From: Bacillota bacterium
Lineage (GTDB): Bacteria; Bacillota; Limnochordia; DTU087
NCBI GenBank assembly: GCA_012519025.1
Contig: JAAYQZ010000005.1
Coordinates: forward strand, 1 to 33,038
Direction of reading: 5' to 3'
DNA length: 33,038 nt
Part shown: positions 475 through 30,456 of the stretch, piece after piece
Layout of the letters: every line of letters begins with the position of its first letter
Position numbering within the stretch: the stretch's first letter is position 1
Translations under genes and position numbers: made by a program
The notes under the pieces: model-generated
The model's input: only the letters and a program-made list of their open reading frames with translations
What the model was told of the DNA's origin: nothing
Database searches by the model: none

Positions 475-2187
475 GTGAGAAGAAAGTTTAGTGTTTTGAT
501 TGCCTTTGTGCTGGCAGCTACTTTCATATTGGGAGCGCTTGCCATGCCAGGATTGGCAGCAGCCGAATTCAAAGATTACGGGCCGGTTGTTGATGAGATC
601 ATCATGCCCATCATCAAAGAAAGCACCGCCCTTAGAATCGCTTTTGAACGAGGTGAAACTGTCGTATGGCCGGGTCTGACACAGCCTGCTGATATTGATC
701 AAGCAAAATCTTTGGATTATGCCGACATGCGCATGACCTTAGGTTTTCACATGTTCTACTTGTGCTTTAATATGCGCAAAGCCCCCTACGACGCCCCAGT
801 TATTCGACAAGCTATGGCCCACATCACTGACCGTGACAATATTATCCGGACGTTATTTAAGGGATACATGCTGCCTATGACCAGCTTTGTACCCCAGGCC
901 TCTGCATTCTACAAAGAGGACCTGCCCACATATCCCTTCAACCTTGCCCGGGCTGCTGAAATTCTCGATGAGGCCGGTTATGTGCTCGATGAAACCGGCA
1001 GGAATAGAATTGATCCGAAAACAGGTAAACCTCTTCCGGAAATGAAAATTTTTACACCAACTTATGAAGTAGCACCCACCTCTGCTGAGCTCGGCAAAAT
1101 GATCGCTGATTCAGCTCAGAAGGTTGGCCTTCCCGTGGTACCGGAGCCAATGGATTTCAACATTATGCTTGACAAGATCGACATACACGACTTTGATATG
1201 TACGTATTGGCATGGTCGCTCAGCCGCAACCCAACCCATCTGGTTAACTTTTTCCACTCTAACCAGGATGTAGAGGCCGGTTACAATAATCCGGGGATCC
1301 GTGACCCGAAACTAGATCGTGTTCTCGATCTATTGGATACTGCTCCCGAACTGCAGACTGCCAGAGTTGCGGCAGATGAAGCACAGTTAATCCTAGCGAG
1401 AGAAATGCCTTACATTCCTCTTTACTCACGCCCGTATATCGATGCATTCCGCAAAGATATGGTAACAGGCTATATAGATATGATGGGATACGGTGCAGCC
1501 AGCAACAGCAACCAATGGACCTTCCTCAACGTCAGCCGTGTGGACGAGTCAGGTAACCCCGTCCCTGGAGGCACAATCCGTTGGGCACTAGAAGAAGAAC
1601 CCAAGAATCTCAACCCGGCTACAGCTTCCAGTGCATACGAATGGAATGTGCTTGATAGGCTGTTTGATGGTCTATATGCCATGCATCCGGAATCACTAGA
1701 GGACATGACATGGATGGCCAAAGATTGGGATGTAGATACTTGGACGACTGATGCCGGTAGTGAAGGCACCACCATTACCTGGTACCTCCACGATGGCCTC
1801 AAGTGGTCTGATGGAATGCCCTTTACCGCAGAGGATATTAAGTTTACCATCGATTTCTTGAAAGAGAATAAAGTGCCTCGCTATCTGCCCAACACGGAAG
1901 ATATTGCAAAGGTAGAAGTTATCGATGAACTCACGGTAAAAGTATACTTTGATACAGTCAGTTACTGGCACCTGTACAACGCTGCTTTGAGCTTCTTGCC
2001 AAAGCACATCTGGGATGATGTTGAAGATTACAACTCCTTCGAGCCTTGGCTTGAGCCCCATCCGACAATGGAAGGGTTTACAAAGCTGGTTGGGCACGGT
2101 CCATTCATGTTGAAAGAATATCGACCGGGCGAGTTCGTAAGACTTGTCAAAAACCCCAACTACTGGCGCCTGGGTCCAGCTAACTAA
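475..2187 (+). CDS. Family-5 (peptide/nickel-type) ABC transporter substrate-binding protein with circularly permuted domain order
   Basis: GTG start after AAGGAGGAAATGTT; signal peptide MRRKFSVLIAFVLAATFILGALAMPGLAAA; canonical C-part motifs (VDEIIMPIIKESTA, FNMRKAPYDAPVIRQAMAHITDRDNII, YPFNLARAAEILDEAGY, YIPLYSRP) come before canonical N-part motifs (GGTIRWALEEEPKNLNPA, LHDGLKWSDGMPFTAEDIKFT, GHGPFMLKEYRPGEFVRLVKNPNYW). Confidence 0.92.
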   Translation: MRRKFSVLIAFVLAATFILGALAMPGLAAAEFKDYGPVVDEIIMPIIKESTALRIAFERGETVVWPGLTQPADIDQAKSLDYADMRMTLGFHMFYLCFNMRKAPYDAPVIRQAMAHITDRDNIIRTLFKGYMLPMTSFVPQASAFYKEDLPTYPFNLARAAEILDEAGYVLDETGRNRIDPKTGKPLPEMKIFTPTYEVAPTSAELGKMIADSAQKVGLPVVPEPMDFNIMLDKIDIHDFDMYVLAWSLSRNPTHLVNFFHSNQDVEAGYNNPGIRDPKLDRVLDLLDTAPELQTARVAADEAQLILAREMPYIPLYSRPYIDAFRKDMVTGYIDMMGYGAASNSNQWTFLNVSRVDESGNPVPGGTIRWALEEEPKNLNPATASSAYEWNVLDRLFDGLYAMHPESLEDMTWMAKDWDVDTWTTDAGSEGTTITWYLHDGLKWSDGMPFTAEDIKFTIDFLKENKVPRYLPNTEDIAKVEVIDELTVKVYFDTVSYWHLYNAALSFLPKHIWDDVEDYNSFEPWLEPHPTMEGFTKLVGHGPFMLKEYRPGEFVRLVKNPNYWRLGPAN

Positions 2188-2276: not shown

Positions 2277-3260
2277 TTGGGCTTTCGTTCGTACCTCGTG
2301 AAACGTATATGGTACGCATTATTGGTTTTAGTTGTTATTTTAACATTCAATTTCGTTCTTTTTAGAGTTATGCCCGGTGATCCGGAAAAAATGATTATTG
2401 ATCCCAACTTCACTGTGGAGGCCAAGCAAGAACTCCGACGACAATATGGATTAGACGAACCCATTTTAAAGCAATACACAAACTATATGACATCTCTTTT
2501 AAAATTCGATATGGGATTATCTTTCAACACTCGTCGGCCTGTTTGGTCGGAACTTAAAGAAAGACTGCCTAACACACTTATACTATTCCTGGCAACATTT
2601 GTCAGCACAGCAGCAGTGGGGATATCTTTAGGGGTATTTTCAGCTGCAAACAGGGGCAGATTCAATGAGAAATTTGTAGTCGGTGCCGGGCTGTTTGCCC
2701 ATGCAGTGCCTGGATTTTTCATTCAGCTCTTATTACTACTTTTACTGGGTTATTACTGGCCGATCCTGCCAATCCACGGGACCATGAGCGCACCACCTCC
2801 CGATGGCGGTTTTGCTGTGCTTCTAGATCGACTGTGGCATCTAATACTGCCGGCAGGCTCCAACATGATCCTTGGCTTTGGTTCTTGGGCCTTATACACC
2901 CGCAACACCATGCTGGAAGCTCTTTCTCAGGATTATGTTACGACTGCACGGGCAAAAGGCCTGCCCAAAGGTGATATTATGTACCACCATGCCCTGCGCA
3001 GTGTCTTACCGCCTATTGTCACCTTGGTATTCATGTCACTGCCCGGAGCAGTGAGCGGGGCAGTCATCACAGAAAGCATTTTTTCCTGGCACGGTGTGGG
3101 CAGATATCTTCTGGATGCTACTTTGCAGATGGATTACCCTGCAGCTCAGGGGGCGTTTTACTTGATTGCATTGTCTGTTATCATATCCAATTTATTAGCG
3201 GATATCGCTTACGGTCTTGTTGACCCGAGAATCCGCGTAGGGGCAGGTGGTCCTAAATGA
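2277..3260 (+). CDS. Peptide ABC transporter permease, DppB/OppB family
   Basis: TTG start; N-terminal GFRSYLVKRIWYALLVLVVILTFNFVLFRVMPGDP; EAA-loop-like DYVTTARAKGLPKGDIMYHHALRSVLPP; C-terminal LADIAYGLVDPRIRVG. Confidence 0.92.
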   Translation: MGFRSYLVKRIWYALLVLVVILTFNFVLFRVMPGDPEKMIIDPNFTVEAKQELRRQYGLDEPILKQYTNYMTSLLKFDMGLSFNTRRPVWSELKERLPNTLILFLATFVSTAAVGISLGVFSAANRGRFNEKFVVGAGLFAHAVPGFFIQLLLLLLLGYYWPILPIHGTMSAPPPDGGFAVLLDRLWHLILPAGSNMILGFGSWALYTRNTMLEALSQDYVTTARAKGLPKGDIMYHHALRSVLPPIVTLVFMSLPGAVSGAVITESIFSWHGVGRYLLDATLQMDYPAAQGAFYLIALSVIISNLLADIAYGLVDPRIRVGAGGPK

Positions 3261-4840
3261 CTCAAAGCACAAAAACCACGCAGAAAATAGAAGCAGCTAG
3301 GGCCGCAGCTTCCGCTGCTCCCAGACCCCTGACTTTTTGGGAACAATATCGGCGCAATACCCAAGGAATGATTGGGCTTGCCATTGTCTTGGTCTATGTG
3401 TTGGTGGCTGTATTTGCACCATACATCGCACCTCACGACCCTATGAATGACCTGTATCTTGCAGACAGTCACTCAGGGCCCATCTGGCTTTCGAAAATAT
3501 CGAAAAAGCACCAGGGACTTCCACCTACTATACGCTTAACGCTGAACTACGGGGATTGGAAAGTAGACAAATCAGAGGATATTGCCATTGTTGGTCAGGA
3601 GTATCAAACTGGCACAGGCATGGACATCACCCTGCCTGCTGCCTTGAAGGATGAGCCGATTGGGATCGATGATACCCCTGCAGCAACCAGCCCTTGGACG
3701 AGCACCTTCCAGTGGGATCCCTTCGGGTCCTCAGAAGCGTCCACTGAGCAAGAGACCAATACAGCAGCTTCAGTTGATGCTGCTGTATTCGAATATGTTT
3801 TCAATTACGAATATCGTAAACCGCAAACTTTCAGCGCAAAATTTGAATATGACATAGAGGCCCCGCAAGATGCTGAAACTCAACTTCTGCTTGAGTTTGT
3901 CACACCGAGCGGCAAGTCTTTTGAGCTGTGGGACACTACAGCAACCGGCGGTGTTCGTTCAGCCACAGCTTTAGTCGATGCTCGGGACTACGATCTTAAA
4001 AATCGTTTAAAAATATCGTTTTTTGATGAGCCTACTGATGTAGTATTTGCTGAGCAAGGTGACTACACCCTGCGCCTGACAGCAAACACTGATTCTCCCA
4101 ATGGACCTGTTGTTGTCAAACTCAAACCGATGGAATTTGGTGTGTTGGGTATGTTATATGGCTTGTTGGGTGTCGATCACATGGGTTCCGACATTTGGTC
4201 ACAGCTCATATATGGGACTCGCATCGCTTTGGCGATCGGCCTATCGGCTGCATTTATCGCCGTCATCATAGGAACATCAGTTGGAATGGTTGCCGGCTAT
4301 ATCGGCGGGATGGTAGATGAGGTGCTCATGCGAGTGGTCGATGTTTTGCTTGCAGTTCCTACCATGCCCATTTTGATTATCTTAGGTGCACTATTTGGGA
4401 AAAGCGTAGCTAACGTCGTAATTTTGCTGGCTCTGTTTTCTTGGATGGGGGTTGCGAGAATAGTCAGATCCCAGGCCTTATCTCTTAAAGAGCGCACCTT
4501 TGTGGAGTCAGCTAAGGCTTCGGGAGCATCAAGCGGATATATTATGCTGTCACACATTTTACCCAACACCATGCCTTTGATTTTTGCTAATTTGGTGCTC
4601 CGTATTCCCAGTGCCATTTTGACTGAGGCATCTTTGAGCTTTCTGGGTTTAGGAGATCCTCGTGTCCCCACCTGGGGCAGAATACTGCAAAACTCCAGGC
4701 AATTTGGTGGCTTTACTAAAATGGCGTGGTGGTGGCTGTTGCCTCCGGGCCTTGCCCTAACTTTCTTAAGTTTGGCGTTTGTTTTTATCGGCAACGCCGT
4801 CAATGAAATTCTTAATCCACGATATAGGGAGAGATCGTAA
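3257..4840 (+). CDS. Peptide ABC transporter permease, DppC/OppC family, with a large insertion after TM1
   Basis: ATGA overlap with the upstream gene; TM1 GMIGLAIVLVYVLVAVFAPYIAPHDPMN; GVDHMGSDIWSQLIYGTRIALAIGLSAA; RTFVESAKASGASSGYIMLSHILPNTMPLI; C-terminal NAVNEILNPRYRERS. Confidence 0.92.
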   Translation: MTQSTKTTQKIEAARAAASAAPRPLTFWEQYRRNTQGMIGLAIVLVYVLVAVFAPYIAPHDPMNDLYLADSHSGPIWLSKISKKHQGLPPTIRLTLNYGDWKVDKSEDIAIVGQEYQTGTGMDITLPAALKDEPIGIDDTPAATSPWTSTFQWDPFGSSEASTEQETNTAASVDAAVFEYVFNYEYRKPQTFSAKFEYDIEAPQDAETQLLLEFVTPSGKSFELWDTTATGGVRSATALVDARDYDLKNRLKISFFDEPTDVVFAEQGDYTLRLTANTDSPNGPVVVKLKPMEFGVLGMLYGLLGVDHMGSDIWSQLIYGTRIALAIGLSAAFIAVIIGTSVGMVAGYIGGMVDEVLMRVVDVLLAVPTMPILIILGALFGKSVANVVILLALFSWMGVARIVRSQALSLKERTFVESAKASGASSGYIMLSHILPNTMPLIFANLVLRIPSAILTEASLSFLGLGDPRVPTWGRILQNSRQFGGFTKMAWWWLLPPGLALTFLSLAFVFIGNAVNEILNPRYRERS

Positions 4841-4842
4841 CC

Positions 4843-6879
4843 ATGGCCCTACTCGAAGTAAAAGACCTTAAAATGTATTACCGGACCCTAAGGGGCCATG
4901 TCCGGGCGGTTGATTCCGTCAGTTTCGAAATCGAACGCGGCAAAGCCCTTGGTATCGCCGGTGAATCCGGTTGTGGAAAGTCCAGTATGGCCTCCGCCCT
5001 TTTGCGTCTTCTGCCATCCAATGGAGCCTACCACGGCGGCAGCGTGATTATGGACGGTCAGGACCTTTTGAAAATGCCGGAGGAGCGTTTCCGCAAAGAA
5101 ATCCGCTGGAATCGTATTTCCATGGTTTTTCAAGGTGCAATGAACGCCCTAAATCCGGTACACCGCGTGGGAGAGCAAATTGTTGAAGCAATATTGAGCC
5201 ACGAAAACGTGTCTCGCAAAGAGGCTGTGGAAAGGGCAAGAGAGCTTCTGCAATTGGTAGGCATCAATCCCCAGCGGTTTTCAGAATACCCCCACGAGTT
5301 TAGCGGGGGTATGAAACAACGTTCCATTATCGCCATGGCTTTGGCCTGTCACCCGGACCTAATTATTGCCGATGAACCGACAACGGCCCTTGATGTGATG
5401 GTTCAAGCCCAGATCCTTAAGGCCATGGGGGAACTAAGGGAGCGTTTGGGCTTATCCATGATGCTCATCACCCACGACTTATCAGTTATAGCGCAAACCT
5501 GCGATTCAGTTGCCATCATGTATGCCGGCAAAATTGCGGAATATGGCAGTGTGATGGATGTATATACTAACCCTGCCCACCCATATTCCCACGGTCTGCT
5601 GGGTTCTTTCCCCAACATTCAAGCCGAGCGATCGGAAGTCAGATCCTTACCGGGTTTCCCTCCTAACCTTCTTGCACCCCCATCGGGCTGCAGATTCCAC
5701 CCCCGCTGCCCGCTGGCAGATGAAATGTGTATGGAGGTGGAACCTGAGGTCCGCCGGGTTGATGATTCAGGGCGTGTTGTAGCCTGCCACAAAGCCGAAC
5801 TGGTATTGGAAGGCAAGAAATTGTGGGAGCCAATGGGAGCCAGTGCCGCCCGGGATACAGGTAAAAAGACTATTTTGGAGGTCAGCGACCTGGTCAAGCA
5901 CTTCCCCGTTCGCATGGGGCTGCTAAAATCATTAAGTGCAAAAGAGCAGCCTGCTCTGCGTGCAGTGGATGGCGTTTCCTTCGATGTTTACAAAGGAGAA
6001 ATTCTGGGTGTTGTGGGTGAATCGGGCTGTGGTAAGACAACATTAGCCCGCAGCATCTTGCGATTAATTGATCCCACCAGTGGAAAAGCGATTTTTGAGG
6101 GAACGGACATTTTAGATAAAGATGCTCTCCAGATGAAGACCCTGCGGCGCAAGATGCAGGTCATTTTCCAGGATCCTTACGAATCAATGAATCCCCGTAT
6201 GGATGTTCAGACAATTGTCTCTGAACCGCTGCGGATCCAGGGTTTGTTTAAAACAACTCATGCTGCCCGCGAAGTGGTTGCCAAGGTGCTTAGTGATGTA
6301 GAGATGATACCACCGGAGGAATATATGGGAAGATACCCCCACGAGCTTTCCGGTGGCCAGCGTCAGCGAGTAGCCGTAGCAAGGGCCCTGACGTTGGATC
6401 CCGATTTCATTGTAGCTGATGAACCAGTATCGATGCTTGATGTCTCTATCCGAGGCGAAGTCCTCAATTTAATGCTTAATTTATCGAGATCCCAAGGCGT
6501 CACTTTCGTCTATATCACGCATGATCTCGCCACTGCAAGACACATTTGTGACCGAATAGCAGTTATGTATCTTGGCAAGATAGTAGAACTGGGTACTGCG
6601 GAGGAAGTAATTGGATCACCGCGACACCCCTACACTTCAGCTTTAATCGGGGCTGTTTTCGTGCCGGATCCCAGACACAGAGGATTTACTCAATTGCTGA
6701 GGGGTGAAATCCCAAGTCCCGTGAACCCACCCTCAGGCTGCAGATTACACCCTCGATGCCCTTATGCTACAGCAATATGCAAAGAGGTCGAACCGGAGCT
6801 GACACTTTACGAAGGCACACATCAATCTGCATGCCATCGCACGGAACAAATACAAGACCAACTGCGCCAGATTGGTTAA
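4843..6879 (+). CDS. Fused dipeptide ABC transporter ATP-binding protein (DppD-DppF type, two ABC domains)
   Basis: Two Walker A motifs (GESGCGKSS, GESGCGKTT), two LSGG-type signatures (FSGGMKQR, LSGGQRQR), two oligo_HPY Cys-rich tails (GCRFHPRCPLADEMC..., GCRLHPRCPYATAIC...). Confidence 0.95.
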   Translation: MALLEVKDLKMYYRTLRGHVRAVDSVSFEIERGKALGIAGESGCGKSSMASALLRLLPSNGAYHGGSVIMDGQDLLKMPEERFRKEIRWNRISMVFQGAMNALNPVHRVGEQIVEAILSHENVSRKEAVERARELLQLVGINPQRFSEYPHEFSGGMKQRSIIAMALACHPDLIIADEPTTALDVMVQAQILKAMGELRERLGLSMMLITHDLSVIAQTCDSVAIMYAGKIAEYGSVMDVYTNPAHPYSHGLLGSFPNIQAERSEVRSLPGFPPNLLAPPSGCRFHPRCPLADEMCMEVEPEVRRVDDSGRVVACHKAELVLEGKKLWEPMGASAARDTGKKTILEVSDLVKHFPVRMGLLKSLSAKEQPALRAVDGVSFDVYKGEILGVVGESGCGKTTLARSILRLIDPTSGKAIFEGTDILDKDALQMKTLRRKMQVIFQDPYESMNPRMDVQTIVSEPLRIQGLFKTTHAAREVVAKVLSDVEMIPPEEYMGRYPHELSGGQRQRVAVARALTLDPDFIVADEPVSMLDVSIRGEVLNLMLNLSRSQGVTFVYITHDLATARHICDRIAVMYLGKIVELGTAEEVIGSPRHPYTSALIGAVFVPDPRHRGFTQLLRGEIPSPVNPPSGCRLHPRCPYATAICKEVEPELTLYEGTHQSACHRTEQIQDQLRQIG

Positions 6880-6896
6880 CACTAAAATTGGTGAAA

Positions 6897-6939
6897 AATA
6901 TGCCCCAATGCCTTTGCGGTGTTTGGGGCATATTTCTTC
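6897..6939 (+). terminator. Rho-independent terminator downstream of the peptide ABC operon
   Basis: Perfect 11-bp stem atatgccccaa / ttggggcatat, then ttcttct. Confidence 0.8.
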
Positions 6940-6986
6940 TATCACATTGCTTGTCAGATTATATTCCAACCCAAGGAGGACACGGT

Positions 6987-8363
6987 ATGTTGGAGCTGCT
7001 TAAGACAGTTATTCAAAATTGTAATGGCTATGGAGAGGTTAGGTACCACCACCGAATTCACACGGCAATAGAAGCCCGCAACAGCACCTTAACCAAAGTT
7101 GAGCACAGGACCCTATCAGGTGCCGGGGTACGGGTGCTGGTCGATGGCTGTTGGGGATTTGTTTCAACAAATGACGTTAGTGAAACTGGTCTGAAGCGTG
7201 CCTTGTTTGAGGCAGAAACGGCGGCCAAAACCGGTGCCGCCCTTCGTAAAACCAAGGTAAATCTGGCACCGGCAGCACAGGCCCAAGGTGAATTCATCTA
7301 TTACGAGCAAAGTGAAGAACCTGATATCGCCACCAAAATCCAAACTGTCCTGGATGCGGAGGAGATGATCCGCAAATCTTCTGCTTTGGTTACCGGCAGC
7401 ATTACAATGTATACACAGTATGAAGATGAGAAGTTTATCGTTAATTCCCACGGGGCAAGCACACACATCCTGGACAACAAACCAAGCTTCCACGTAATCG
7501 CTACAGTGGCCCGAGATGACCAGCTCGAAACTGGATTGAAATCGGTAGGTGTAACCGGCTCTTGGCGGGATCTACTTAAGCAAAGCGACTTAAACACCCT
7601 TGCAAAGGAAGCAGTTGAGCTTGCCATAAAGAAGCTAGATGCCGGTTATGCCAAAGGCGGCCAGTATACAGTTATTCTTGATCCTGCCCTTGTCGGCGTC
7701 CTAGCCCACGAAGCTATTGGCCACACAGTGGAAGCAGATTTCGTGCTCAGCGGCTCTGTTGTCCAAGGCAAAATTGAACAACAGGTGGCCAGCAAGCTTG
7801 TGACTATGGTAGACGATGGAACAGTAAACGGTGCTGTGGGAATGGTGCTTGTTGACGATGAGGGCGTCCTTGGGCAAAAGACAACTATAATTGAAAGCGG
7901 CATTCTAAAAGCTTATCTGCATTCAAGGGAGTCGGCTTCCATTTTCCAAGCAGAACCCCGGGGCAATGCACGGGCATTCACCTACTTGGACGAACCTCTC
8001 ATAAGGATGACCAACACTTTCGTACTGCCCGGTGAGGACAATCTAGATGACATGATTGAGGGAATCAAAGACGGTTTTCTCTTAAAAGACCTTGGACAAG
8101 GCGGTCAAGCTGACTCCACTGCTGAGTTTATGTTCGGAGTTGCTGAGGCCTACCGCATCACAAACGGGAAACTCGGTGAAATGGTCAAAGGCGTTACCAT
8201 CTCCGGCCAAGCCTTTGACGTTCTTAAAAGCGTGGACGCTGTATCAGCGGATTTTCTTATGGAAATGGGAGCAGGACACTGCGGCAAATTTCAGCTGGCC
8301 AAAGTGGACAGCGGCGGCCCTTACCTGCGCTGTAAGGTGACTGTAGGTGGTCATCATGACTAA
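6987..8363 (+). CDS. tldD: TldD family metalloprotease
   Basis: ATG at 6987 after AAGGAGGACACGGT; HEAIGHTVEADFVLSGS zinc-site motif; GNARAFTYLDEPLIRMTNTFVLPGE; the 6756 start of the ORF track overlaps the upstream gene and is not used. Confidence 0.93.
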   Translation: MLELLKTVIQNCNGYGEVRYHHRIHTAIEARNSTLTKVEHRTLSGAGVRVLVDGCWGFVSTNDVSETGLKRALFEAETAAKTGAALRKTKVNLAPAAQAQGEFIYYEQSEEPDIATKIQTVLDAEEMIRKSSALVTGSITMYTQYEDEKFIVNSHGASTHILDNKPSFHVIATVARDDQLETGLKSVGVTGSWRDLLKQSDLNTLAKEAVELAIKKLDAGYAKGGQYTVILDPALVGVLAHEAIGHTVEADFVLSGSVVQGKIEQQVASKLVTMVDDGTVNGAVGMVLVDDEGVLGQKTTIIESGILKAYLHSRESASIFQAEPRGNARAFTYLDEPLIRMTNTFVLPGEDNLDDMIEGIKDGFLLKDLGQGGQADSTAEFMFGVAEAYRITNGKLGEMVKGVTISGQAFDVLKSVDAVSADFLMEMGAGHCGKFQLAKVDSGGPYLRCKVTVGGHHD

Positions 8364-9741
8364 AACTAATTCCGACTTACTGGGAGGGAGCGCTTTGAAC
8401 AGCTCTGAACTTTGCACGGATCTTATTGAACAAGCGGTAAAGATGGGTGCCAAGGACGCTGAAGTTTTTCACATCAAGTCTCGAACATTGGAGGCGGTGT
8501 TCGAAAAGAACGACTTGCAGGTACCCAAAGGCGATAATTACCAAGGTCTTGGTATACGAGTGCACATCAGTGGTGCCGGCGGCGTAAAACAAGGCTTTGC
8601 TGCCACCAATGTCTTATCTCCCGACTCCCTGCACAGTACTCTTGAAACAGCCTTAGCCATCGCCAAGGCATCTCCCTCAGATCCCTATCATTGGATACCG
8701 GACCCACAGCCAGTCAAATCAGTAGAAGCAATCTACGACTCGACTGCTAGGGAGATGACGCTTCAAGATGTGGTCAAAGAGGGTGCACAACTCGTAGATG
8801 CGGCCCGCGGTTGCGATTCTAGAATCACTTTAGATTCAGCCAGGTACGCAGTTGACATACTGGAAAAGACCATTGTCAATTCAAAAGGAATTCATTTAAA
8901 AGAAAAGAGCTCTGTTTTCAGCTGTATAGGCCTGGGGTTTGCAAGAGATGGGGATGATATATCATCTTTTGACGCAGAGGTTGCAGTAAAATGCCATTAC
9001 AGTGAGATTGATCCCGCCCAAACCGGTATAAGACTTGCTGAAAAAGTGATATCTGCTTTGGGCGCTGCTGCTGTCCCCAGTTTCAGGGGAAGTATCATCA
9101 TCACCCCATACGCCGCTGAGGAATTGGTAGTAGATCCAATTTTCTTTGCTTGTAATGCTCAAAATGTACAAAGCGGTCGATCGAAATGGGCAAATATGCT
9201 GGGTGCTAAAGTTCTGTCACCACTGATTTCCATAACAGACGATCCTACTATACCCGGTGCCGTAGGTTCCACCGCATTTGATCGGGAAGGAGTCCCCCCA
9301 AAAACCTTAGCTGTCATAGAAGAAGGCGTGCTCAACCACTACTTCTATAATTCGTATACAGCCCAGAAAGATGACACGGCCTCCAACGGCAGGGCTTCAG
9401 GTGGTGATGACTCCATTCCGGGAATTTCAACAACCAATCTTATCGTTGCCCCTGGGGAAGTCTCTTTAAATGACATGATTGCTTCATGTTCCAAAGGACT
9501 TTTGATCAACAGGTTCTCCGGGAATGTCGACCATGTCAGCGGGGATTTTTCCGGTGTAGTCAAAGGTGGTCAATATATTGAAAACGGCAAGATCAAGCAC
9601 CCCGTCAAAGAAGTCATGATCGCCGGCAATATCTATGATCTGTTGAAACAAGTAGCGGCCGTTTCTAAGGAATATATCGAAACCGAAGATGCGAAATTGC
9701 CCTACATCCAAATTGAAGGTTGCTCCGTAACGGGCCGATAG
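8347..9741 (+). CDS. pmbA: TldD/PmbA family protein (TldE/PmbA subunit)
   Basis: Overlaps the tldD 3' end; TTNLIVAPGEVSLNDMIASCSKGLLINRFSGNVDHVSGDFSGVVKGGQYIENGKI is characteristic of PmbA. Confidence 0.92.
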   Translation: MVIMTKTNSDLLGGSALNSSELCTDLIEQAVKMGAKDAEVFHIKSRTLEAVFEKNDLQVPKGDNYQGLGIRVHISGAGGVKQGFAATNVLSPDSLHSTLETALAIAKASPSDPYHWIPDPQPVKSVEAIYDSTAREMTLQDVVKEGAQLVDAARGCDSRITLDSARYAVDILEKTIVNSKGIHLKEKSSVFSCIGLGFARDGDDISSFDAEVAVKCHYSEIDPAQTGIRLAEKVISALGAAAVPSFRGSIIITPYAAEELVVDPIFFACNAQNVQSGRSKWANMLGAKVLSPLISITDDPTIPGAVGSTAFDREGVPPKTLAVIEEGVLNHYFYNSYTAQKDDTASNGRASGGDDSIPGISTTNLIVAPGEVSLNDMIASCSKGLLINRFSGNVDHVSGDFSGVVKGGQYIENGKIKHPVKEVMIAGNIYDLLKQVAAVSKEYIETEDAKLPYIQIEGCSVTGR

Positions 9742-26795: not shown

Positions 26796-28715
26796 ATGAG
26801 AAGTAAAAGGCTAATATCAGGATTGCTCATGGCCATACTCGTTTTCTCGCTGGCTACCATCGCTTATGGTTACAACGAGGCTCCTATGTTGAAGGAATTG
26901 GTTGAAGTCGGCAAGTTGCCATCGGTGAATGAACGCCTGCCTAAAAACCCTATGGTTGTAGACGTTGTTGAGCGCATTGGTGATTATGGCGGCACTCTCC
27001 GCACATCCAGCATTGCAGCAGATAGTATGCTGGGGCCCCATGTGATCGTAATGGGTGACGGGATCTTAAAAACAGATTCAGACTACAGTACCGTGATTCC
27101 CAATGTCGCGGAAGCATGGGAGTTATCCGATGACGCCACAAGGTTGACCCTGCATTTAAGAGAAGGCCTTAGGTGGTCTGATGGTGTACCGTTTGATGCC
27201 GATGATATAATGTTTTGGTGGGATGATGTTGAACTAAATGAAGAAATCCGCCCTGTTGGGCCCAGCCGTCGAGTTTGGTGTCCCGGTGGAGAACCCATGA
27301 AAGTTAGGAAAATTGATGATTATACGGTGGAATTTGAGTTTGCCATTCCCAATCCACTGAATGTTAGAGAGTTAGCCCACGGTTCCGGTATGGCCGTTGC
27401 CGGCTTTCCGAAACATTATCTCAAGCAATTCCACCCCAAATATACCCCCAAGGAAGAGTTGGATAAAATAATTGCAGCAGATGATGCTTACGACTATTGG
27501 TATGAAATGTTTTTAGATAAAGCCTCAAGGAGCTCTGGTATCGCAATGCACCCCGGGGTGCCTACTTTATCTGCTTTCGTTGTGGTAAGCAAAGAGCCCG
27601 GTGTCATCCGCCTAGAGCGCAACCCCTATTATTGGAAAGTTGATCCGGAAGGAAACCAACTGCCCTATATAGACAAAGTGGTTGTAAGAAAGGCTTCTAA
27701 CATAACTACAGTTAACTCGCTTATCATCACCGGTGAGGAGGACTTCAACGGTTTCCACACAAGCCTTCAGAACCTCACAACATACAAACAATTTGAAGAC
27801 CAAGGTGATTATCGAGTCTTGCTTTATAATGGGATCTGGGGTACAGAAGTCATGATTCAGTTCAACCAGACATTAGATGATCCCGTTTGGCGAGATATAG
27901 TCAGAGATGTCAGATTCCGCCGCGGCATGTCACTAGCTATCAATAGAGAGGAAATCAACGATACCCTCTATTTCGGCTTAGGTGAACCCCGGCAGGCCAC
28001 TGTGGTTCCCATTTGCTCGTCTTTTGAACCGGAATTCGCAACGGCTTATGCCCAATACGATTTAGATGAAGCGAATAGACTGCTCGATGCAGTGGGACTG
28101 GACCAACGAGACTCCACCGGTTACAGACTGCGCCCGGACGGCAAGCGGTTTACCATAACTGTCGAGTATTGTGAAGCTGATACCCCCAAAACGCCTACAA
28201 TGGAGCTAGTTCGAGAATATTGGGAGGCAGTCGGTGTTCACACGAATTTGAAGCTGATCAGCAATACGCTGCTTGCTGAAAGAGTACCAACCAATGAAGT
28301 TCAAGTCGGTGTCCATCACGGTGACTATGGCACAGATTCACAATTCTATCACTATCCCGTTTGGTATGTGCCTTTGACGTTGGGATGGTCTACTTCTGTT
28401 TGGCCCCAATGGGCACGCTGGTTCACCAGCCACGGCACACAGGGAGAAGAACCTTCGCCAGAGGTTCTGCGGCTGATTGAGCTTTGGGAAGAAATGCAGG
28501 TTACTCTCGATGACAGTGAAAGAGTTGAACTCGGCAAAGACCTACTGCGACTCCACGCTGAAAATACCTGGTTGATAGGTACTGTAGGCAACGCGCCTTA
28601 TGTAGTAATCGCTAAAAACAACCTGCGCAACATACCGGAGACCGGCTGGTGGGGGTATGATGGGTTCTTTGGTTATGTATATTCCCCTGAGCAGTTTTTC
28701 CTTGAGCAAAATTAA
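26796..28715 (+). CDS. Family-5 ABC transporter substrate-binding protein (canonical domain order; no adjacent permeases)
   Basis: Signal peptide; EAPMLKELVEVGKLPSVNERLPKNPMVV...GDYGGTLRTS; LHLREGLRWSDGVPFDADDIMFWW; RLERNPYYWKVDPEGNQLPYIDKVVV; FRRGMSLAINREEIN. Confidence 0.93.
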   Translation: MRSKRLISGLLMAILVFSLATIAYGYNEAPMLKELVEVGKLPSVNERLPKNPMVVDVVERIGDYGGTLRTSSIAADSMLGPHVIVMGDGILKTDSDYSTVIPNVAEAWELSDDATRLTLHLREGLRWSDGVPFDADDIMFWWDDVELNEEIRPVGPSRRVWCPGGEPMKVRKIDDYTVEFEFAIPNPLNVRELAHGSGMAVAGFPKHYLKQFHPKYTPKEELDKIIAADDAYDYWYEMFLDKASRSSGIAMHPGVPTLSAFVVVSKEPGVIRLERNPYYWKVDPEGNQLPYIDKVVVRKASNITTVNSLIITGEEDFNGFHTSLQNLTTYKQFEDQGDYRVLLYNGIWGTEVMIQFNQTLDDPVWRDIVRDVRFRRGMSLAINREEINDTLYFGLGEPRQATVVPICSSFEPEFATAYAQYDLDEANRLLDAVGLDQRDSTGYRLRPDGKRFTITVEYCEADTPKTPTMELVREYWEAVGVHTNLKLISNTLLAERVPTNEVQVGVHHGDYGTDSQFYHYPVWYVPLTLGWSTSVWPQWARWFTSHGTQGEEPSPEVLRLIELWEEMQVTLDDSERVELGKDLLRLHAENTWLIGTVGNAPYVVIAKNNLRNIPETGWWGYDGFFGYVYSPEQFFLEQN

Positions 28716-29220: not shown

Positions 29221-30456
29221 TCACGCATCATCAAGTAATCTCTTTTCACCTTTTAGCTCTTGGATGGGTGTGACATTTTGTGTTACCTCCAGTACTCCGA
29301 TGTACTCTCCCGCATTATCCCGAACAGCAAAGTAGCGGATATAGATAAGCTGGCCTTTTAGCCGAATCCAGAAGTCCGCCACATCCCGCGTTCCGGCCCG
29401 GAAGTCGTCGATAATTTCTGTCACTACATGGACACTTTCAGGTGGGTGGCAATTTTCCACCCTGCGCCCGATGATGGCCTTAGTCCGAGCAAAAATCCTT
29501 TCAGAACCCTGGGAGAAATACCGGACAACATTGTCCCCATCGACAAAGGTAATATCCACAGGCAAGTGATTAAAGATTAACTCAATCTCTGGCAAGGTCA
29601 AAATACCTGTAGATAGCTGCAAATGCCCCTCAGGGATTTGGGTAGGTGTTGTCTCGATCTTGCGGCTTCGTGTCGGTTGCCATTGGTGCGAAGGCGTAAT
29701 GAGTGTATAGCCAATCTCATCACTTTCCTCAGCGACAGCCTGCCATTCGCCTTCGGACAATGTCTCCAGACACATGGGAAACAGGATCTTTTCTTCTTTG
29801 TAGATCATATCCTGCATGGCCTTGAGGACAGGACGGACCTGTGCCTCACTCTGTTTGATCAGCTCATCCCCAGATAGTGTACCTACCTCTATCTGCTGTA
29901 AGAGGACAGAAGTTTTTTTCAAACCGGCGCGGATATCGTCATGGATAGACCACATGACACCTGGAGGGCCTGTGATCCCGTTCCGCTCCAAAAATGGGAA
30001 CAAGATATTTTCTTTCCTGCTATAGTGCTTCTCTACTTCACTTAGCTTGGTGTGAAGTTCTTGCCACCTATTCAGGAGTTCTTGGTTCGCCTCCCTACTA
30101 GATTCTAATCGATTAAGCACCTCCTGCAAATCCCTGATTACTTTTTCCAGAGCCTCATTCTCTAAACGAAAAGTATGGATGGGATGTCCTGGAACACTTT
30201 CAGATGGTGGCTGGACATCTAATGCCTCCTGGAAAACGCTTACATGGACATCACATAAGCGTTTAATCTCTGCCTCTGGGATACCTTCGTCGATAAGTGC
30301 CTGCTCCAGTTGGGAGATCTCGGTTCCTCCAATATCTTCAATGAGAGCCCTGAAGCGGTCCTTCACGTCCTCTACTGATTGACCTGCGTGTAAATCCCTA
30401 ATTATTCTTTTGAGCTGCTCCTGTCGGTAGGCTCGATTATTGATCAGCTCAGTCAC
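29221..30456 (-). CDS. DUF438 domain-containing protein with hemerythrin-like and PAS domains
   Basis: N-terminal DUF438-like region; HPIHTFRLENEALEKVIRDL...HYSRKENILFPFLERNGITGPPGVMWSIHDDIR hemerythrin ligand pattern; C-terminal PAS IELIFNHLPVDITFVDGDNVVRYFSQGSERIFART. Confidence 0.9.
   Translation of the reverse strand: MTELINNRAYRQEQLKRIIRDLHAGQSVEDVKDRFRALIEDIGGTEISQLEQALIDEGIPEAEIKRLCDVHVSVFQEALDVQPPSESVPGHPIHTFRLENEALEKVIRDLQEVLNRLESSREANQELLNRWQELHTKLSEVEKHYSRKENILFPFLERNGITGPPGVMWSIHDDIRAGLKKTSVLLQQIEVGTLSGDELIKQSEAQVRPVLKAMQDMIYKEEKILFPMCLETLSEGEWQAVAEESDEIGYTLITPSHQWQPTRSRKIETTPTQIPEGHLQLSTGILTLPEIELIFNHLPVDITFVDGDNVVRYFSQGSERIFARTKAIIGRRVENCHPPESVHVVTEIIDDFRAGTRDVADFWIRLKGQLIYIRYFAVRDNAGEYIGVLEVTQNVTPIQELKGEKRLLDDA

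Follow-up and report, generated by a model that had tools for sequence, protein, structure and literature searches.

Natural circular permutation of a cluster C substrate-binding protein encoded ahead of an Opp-type importer

The DNA stretch analysed here (the window; 33,038 nucleotides, contig JAAYQZ010000005.1 of the Bacillota assembly GCA_012519025.1) carries a gene for an SBP_bac_5 substrate-binding protein (SBP) whose parts appear in an unusual order, which raises the question whether this order is natural, how it may have arisen and whether the product still serves an importer. The original prediction, made from sequence alone, was a natural circular permutation. Profile tests, a rotation scan, the existence of a conserved permuted family and the operon context speak for this claim, and the product of 475–2187 is very likely a cluster C SBP that became circularly permuted in nature and serves the importer encoded directly downstream.

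Canonical SBPs of this type are described here by the order A-B-C; the window protein has the order B-C-A (CP1), and the order C-A-B is termed CP2. The open reading frame 475–2187 (forward strand, as are its parts, the importer genes and the second SBP described below) starts with GTG and encodes a single uninterrupted SBP_bac_5 protein of 570 residues. As read from the sequence, a ribosome-binding site AAGGAGG (461–467) lies 7 bases ahead of the GTG, and a type I signal peptide without lipobox (...AMPGLAAA followed by EF; 475–564) extends to approximately residue 30, the mature N-terminus from residue 31 on being EFKDYGPVVDEI. Segment B, the canonical middle part (residues 37–172; 583–990; segment HMM, E 3e-68), starts just past the NPNYW motif and runs to the LDEAGY motif. 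It is followed by segment C, the canonical C-terminal part (residues 187–343; 1033–1503; segment HMM, E 2e-80), and by the junction between the old C-terminus and the old N-terminus (1504–1566), which includes the linker SRVDESGNPVP and the best rotation cut. Segment A, the canonical mature N-terminal part up to NPNYWR (residues 365–565; 1567–2169; segment HMM, E 3e-106), begins with GGTIRWALEEEPKNLNP at residue 365, corresponding to base 1567, and the protein ends with KNPNYWRLGPAN. The predicted layout, in which the post-NPNYW segment leads the mature protein, the canonical C-terminal region comes next and the N-terminal part comes last, holds exactly, as does the prediction that the short linker leads into the canonical mature N-terminus from about 1567. 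The claim of a clean cut, with nothing obviously duplicated or lost, holds only in part: the joint is not fully seamless, since the old termini are bridged by about 11 linker residues and the new ends, RLGPAN and EFKDYG, include a few residues without a clear counterpart in DppA (DppA loop 233–237).

The swapped order is evident from comparison with the family profile PF00496 (cut-off 32.4 bits). In native order the protein matches in two stretches (219.8 bits), the better of which aligns residues 37–261 to profile positions 146–362, and in a genome-wide profile search positions 146–362 precede positions 5–156 along the DNA. When the protein is rotated (363–570 joined to 37–362), as the original prediction had suggested for a check, a single end-to-end match is obtained, covering profile positions 5–362 of 368 with a score above the native one (240.9 bits). 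A full canonical match without rearrangement, which would have refuted the prediction, is absent. For the rotation scan, the mature protein was rotated at every sixth residue and scored with an HMM of 49 canonical proteins, E. coli DppA among them. The score of the window protein rises from 200.9 bits natively to 363.0 bits at best (profile 45–520 of 541), with the best cut near residue 348, at the boundary between old C-terminus and linker. The controls, comprising DppA, one canonical paralogue from the same genome and the second SBP of the window (26796–28715), all score best unrotated; the last, which gives one Pfam stretch (1–357), is indeed in normal order, as had been claimed. Two other CP1 proteins and the CP2 protein L037 gain by rotation like the window protein; the CP2 protein L042, from which the signal peptide had not been removed before scoring, shows no gain. 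Matches in the PDB are likewise in swapped order, with residues 359–563 aligning to 11–199 of entry 5isu and residues 32–170 to 199–337. Along the rotated chain the family profile is covered in full and only once. The parts are homologous to one protein, each occurring once and swapped within a single reading frame, as expected of a circular permutant.

The arrangement is not confined to the window. When typed by one HMM per segment (the old N-terminal A, the middle B and the old C-terminal C), 108 distinct proteins are assigned to the three cyclic orders A-B-C (50), B-C-A (43) and C-A-B (15), and to none other, the 43 B-C-A proteins coming from approximately 40 genomes of the phylum. Matches spanning a permutation junction are found in 20 of the 73 genomes of the class (17 CP1 and 3 CP2) and in 34 of the 399 sampled genomes of the phylum. 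Intact B-C-A frames in relatives share 48–86% identity; permuted single frames show 73–85% identity within the family and about 50–62% in other families of the class. The arrangement is conserved within one clade. Besides its one permuted gene, the window's own genome contains about 20 full-length paralogues of canonical order, and viral contigs yielded no relative. The annotation of the permuted genes, where one is given, reads merely "ABC transporter substrate-binding protein", and because automatic annotation names them so plainly they have been overlooked.

A second, different permutation, of which the original prediction had no view, is present in the CP2 proteins, where a second clade is cut elsewhere, at the loop after the motif LxxAGYxxDxxGxLxxP. 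These proteins start with the segment past this motif and end with the motif itself. Pfam detects profile positions 2–283 as one uninterrupted stretch at their C-terminal end, and L037 regains a single Pfam match once rotated. In DppA numbering, CP1 opens loop 233–237 and CP2 opens loop ~371–374. The hosts of CP2 include the window's phylum, Alphaproteobacteria and haloarchaea, with C-A-B operons in annotated haloarchaeal and alphaproteobacterial plasmids; outside the window's phylum, the only one surveyed systematically, CP2 is carried by plasmids of Nitratireductor, Ketogulonicigenium, Microvirga, Halalkalicoccus and Halostagnicola. According to this survey, the subfamily was cut and rejoined at two places and kept in many bacteria and some archaea.

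In trees computed after rearranging all segments into canonical order, CP1 forms one clade (support 100/100), as does CP2 (87/73, or 100/98 after removal of nine mostly long-branch rows). CP1, CP2 and one canonical lineage together form a single group (100/99), and the canonical lineage (L034, L038, L040, L191 and L192) is placed beside CP1 with support of 93/89, and of 96/93 in a second tree. A single CP1 plus CP2 clade is not firmly rejected by the AU test (p 0.144 and 0.0535). With CP1, CP2 and a canonical lineage united in one supported subfamily, the data are read most simply as two permutation events, which is not proven. As to the route, a canonical gene would have been duplicated and fused and its outer parts lost, most simply twice in one permutation-prone subfamily. 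Tandem duplication with fusion and terminal loss had been proposed in the original prediction and remains an inference: in two genomes (G217 and G314) the CP1 operon is immediately preceded by a canonical operon with the full set SBP-OppB-C-D-F, whose SBP belongs to the sister lineage of CP1; this fits the route without proving it. Tandem pairs of CP1 genes are found at three loci (L051, L052 and L053). As a separate observation, L192 as well as these three loci has two tandem permuted SBP genes ahead of one OppB-OppC set.

Downstream of the permuted gene lie an OppB/DppB-like permease (2277–3260; PF00528 and PF19300), an OppC/DppC-like permease of 527 residues with a large extracytoplasmic insertion (3257–4840; PF12911 at residues 27–65 and PF00528 at 339–524) and a fused OppD-OppF ATPase of 678 residues (4843–6879; internal two-domain match). 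The gene order SBP-OppB-OppC-OppD-OppF recurs in nearly all CP1 loci examined, so that a search for homologues of the same order beside the same permeases, which the original prediction had proposed, has a positive outcome; fusion of OppD with OppF is seen in the window's family, most other CP1 loci having two separate genes. One CP1-type gene (L185, G217:C74) is an orphan without an Opp operon, located near other ABC transporter ATPase genes. The insertion in the window OppC (about 200 residues, ~90–297; 3524–4147) follows the first transmembrane segment and is predicted by AF2, with moderate confidence, to form a β-sandwich (pLDDT values of ~65–85 in the predicted strands); the transmembrane part was not modelled successfully. 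Foldseek indicates a resemblance to CBM/MAM jelly-rolls, which is a weak lead only. An OppC with a large, similarly placed extra segment is shared by all 17 CP1 operons measured, in which its transmembrane block starts at residues 237–329, versus 67–105 in most others; a long OppC with such a segment also occurs in two CP2 operons (350 and 368) and an intermediate one in a canonical operon (170). The canonical sister lineage is nearest to CP1 among canonical-order proteins in the tree (96/93), but differs from it in order and in having OppB rather than OppC enlarged in most loci; at L186–L190, L191 and L192 this OppB has 390–412 residues and a split match. At L050 (8794–10323), and likewise at L177, the OppC frame stops early (509 residues, with the transmembrane match cut at 455), possibly through an assembly frameshift. 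The window operon is followed by a TldD/TldE (PmbA) metallopeptidase pair (6756–9741), the first gene of which probably starts later, because its open reading frame overlaps the ATPase gene; 29221–30456 encodes a protein that combines DUF438, hemerythrin and PAS domains.

The AF2 prediction for the window SBP, which had also been suggested as a check, reaches a pLDDT of only 47.6 from a shallow alignment of 12 close sequences, and the model was not used. No PDB sequence spanning either permutation junction was found among the PDB matches, which carry the halves in canonical order. With a poor model and no structure, retention of the fold is only inferred. In oligopeptide-binding proteins the two chain ends are close neighbours within domain I (PMC10924461), and for this reason joining the termini and opening a surface loop would leave the fold intact; the chain would then fold as the usual two-lobed Venus-flytrap protein, bind a small ligand and deliver it to OppB/OppC. 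Strong conservation, the export signal and the operon position indicate that the protein is a working Opp-type binding protein, which is likely, in the absence of ligand, expression or structure data. The dN is 0.10 relative to a relative of 85% identity; no whole-gene dN/dS can be given, as dS is saturated. Motifs such as FHS are conserved. In DppA, Arg383 and Asp436 (R383 and D436) hold the carboxyl and amino groups of the peptide (PMC12136057). The equivalents in the window protein are E198 and a gap, so that a dipeptide bound as in DppA is probably not the ligand. The lipobox is absent in all 43 CP1 proteins and also in 15 of 16 canonical paralogues of the same genome; lipid anchoring was considered as a reason for the permutation and discarded, as lack of the lipobox is not distinctive.

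The window protein resembles cluster C SBPs (DppA, OppA, AppA and NikA; PF00496) in its whole profile, its signal peptide and the OppB, OppC, OppD and OppF homologues of its operon; it differs from them in the order B-C-A with joined old termini, and from DppA in lacking the dipeptide-holding residues. None of the NCBIfam equivalog cut-offs (Opp4A, NikA, DppA and others) is reached. A natural circularly permuted binding protein that binds ligand has been described in Treponema pallidum, namely TpMglB-2 (Tp0684; "Type Ic / Cluster Bc"; PMC4990184). Like the window protein it is a naturally permuted ABC-transporter binding protein, but it belongs to Type I / cluster B and is associated with glucose (PMC4990184); in a Pfam search the window SBP matches PF00496 alone and no cluster B sugar-binding family. 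The moved part of TpMglB-2 is only 13% identical to EcMglB, which left its origin open, whereas every segment of the window protein is clearly homologous; moreover, only one permutation is described for TpMglB-2 (PMC4990184), and two permuted orders occur in the cluster C subfamily. The claim that no permutation had been described in the SBP_bac_5 class holds for the open-licence literature searched, in which we found none, the precedent being in another SBP class only; mention elsewhere remains possible.

Several alternative explanations can be weighed against these data. An assembly or gene-calling artefact, in which the ends of tandem canonical SBP genes were joined or a repeat was collapsed, might be suspected because the genome has some 20 paralogues, the source genomes are mostly fragmented drafts and tandem SBP genes are known (L051–L053). 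However, the identical cut and order recur in 43 sequences, with a signal peptide, a stop codon and, some 100 bases further on, OppB; C-A-B copies are present in complete plasmid records, and the genes of a tandem permuted pair are each complete alone. Misassembly, named beforehand as a possible refutation, is excluded by the 43 distinct permuted sequences from ~40 genomes; an adjacent hidden second copy, another such refutation, was sought, and no further SBP segment was found around 475–2187. The artefact reading is rejected on the recurrence of one order across many genomes and can be regarded as practically ruled out. A role as sensor, chaperone or decoy that kept its operon, instead of uptake, could be inferred from the missing DppA ligand residues, the large OppC insertion and the one orphan CP1 gene (L185). 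It is highly improbable, however, given that the gene is nearly always the first of a complete SBP-permease-ATPase operon and that motifs such as FHS are conserved; moreover, many members of cluster C have non-dipeptide ligands.

With respect to origin, it cannot be dismissed that only one permutation took place, that a second cut later turned B-C-A into C-A-B or C-A-B into B-C-A, and that the sister lineage returned to canonical order: both permuted clades share one group with one canonical lineage (100/99), and the AU test gives no firm rejection of one permuted clade (p 0.144 and 0.0535). This scenario requires an extra step, and the best tree places the canonical lineage next to CP1 (93/89 and 96/93). 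Gene fission with later fusion of two half-genes is a recognised alternative to duplication; PMC3320104 describes both models of how permutations originate. It is considered unlikely, as no independent half-genes are seen except contig-end pieces, and the upstream canonical sister operon in two genomes and the tandem CP1 pairs favour duplication. Two events are retained as the simplest reading, with duplication as the inferred route. A bolder reading, for which the evidence is evenly balanced, is that one cluster C subfamily was permuted twice at different loops, that the B-C-A type and its permease, with the β-domain gained by OppC, changed together, and, with the same reservation, that all three cyclic orders work as transporter components in bacteria and archaea.

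Permutation has rarely been observed in natural SBPs, the sole precedent found being one spirochaete-type sugar SBP, whereas permutation of cluster C is widespread here. Canonical sisters are available for comparison in the same genome and even in the next operon. It thus becomes testable how permutations arise and become fixed, by duplication or by fission, how moved termini affect docking to OppB/OppC, and which cut sites are tolerated by nature in a type of scaffold from which biosensors are widely engineered.
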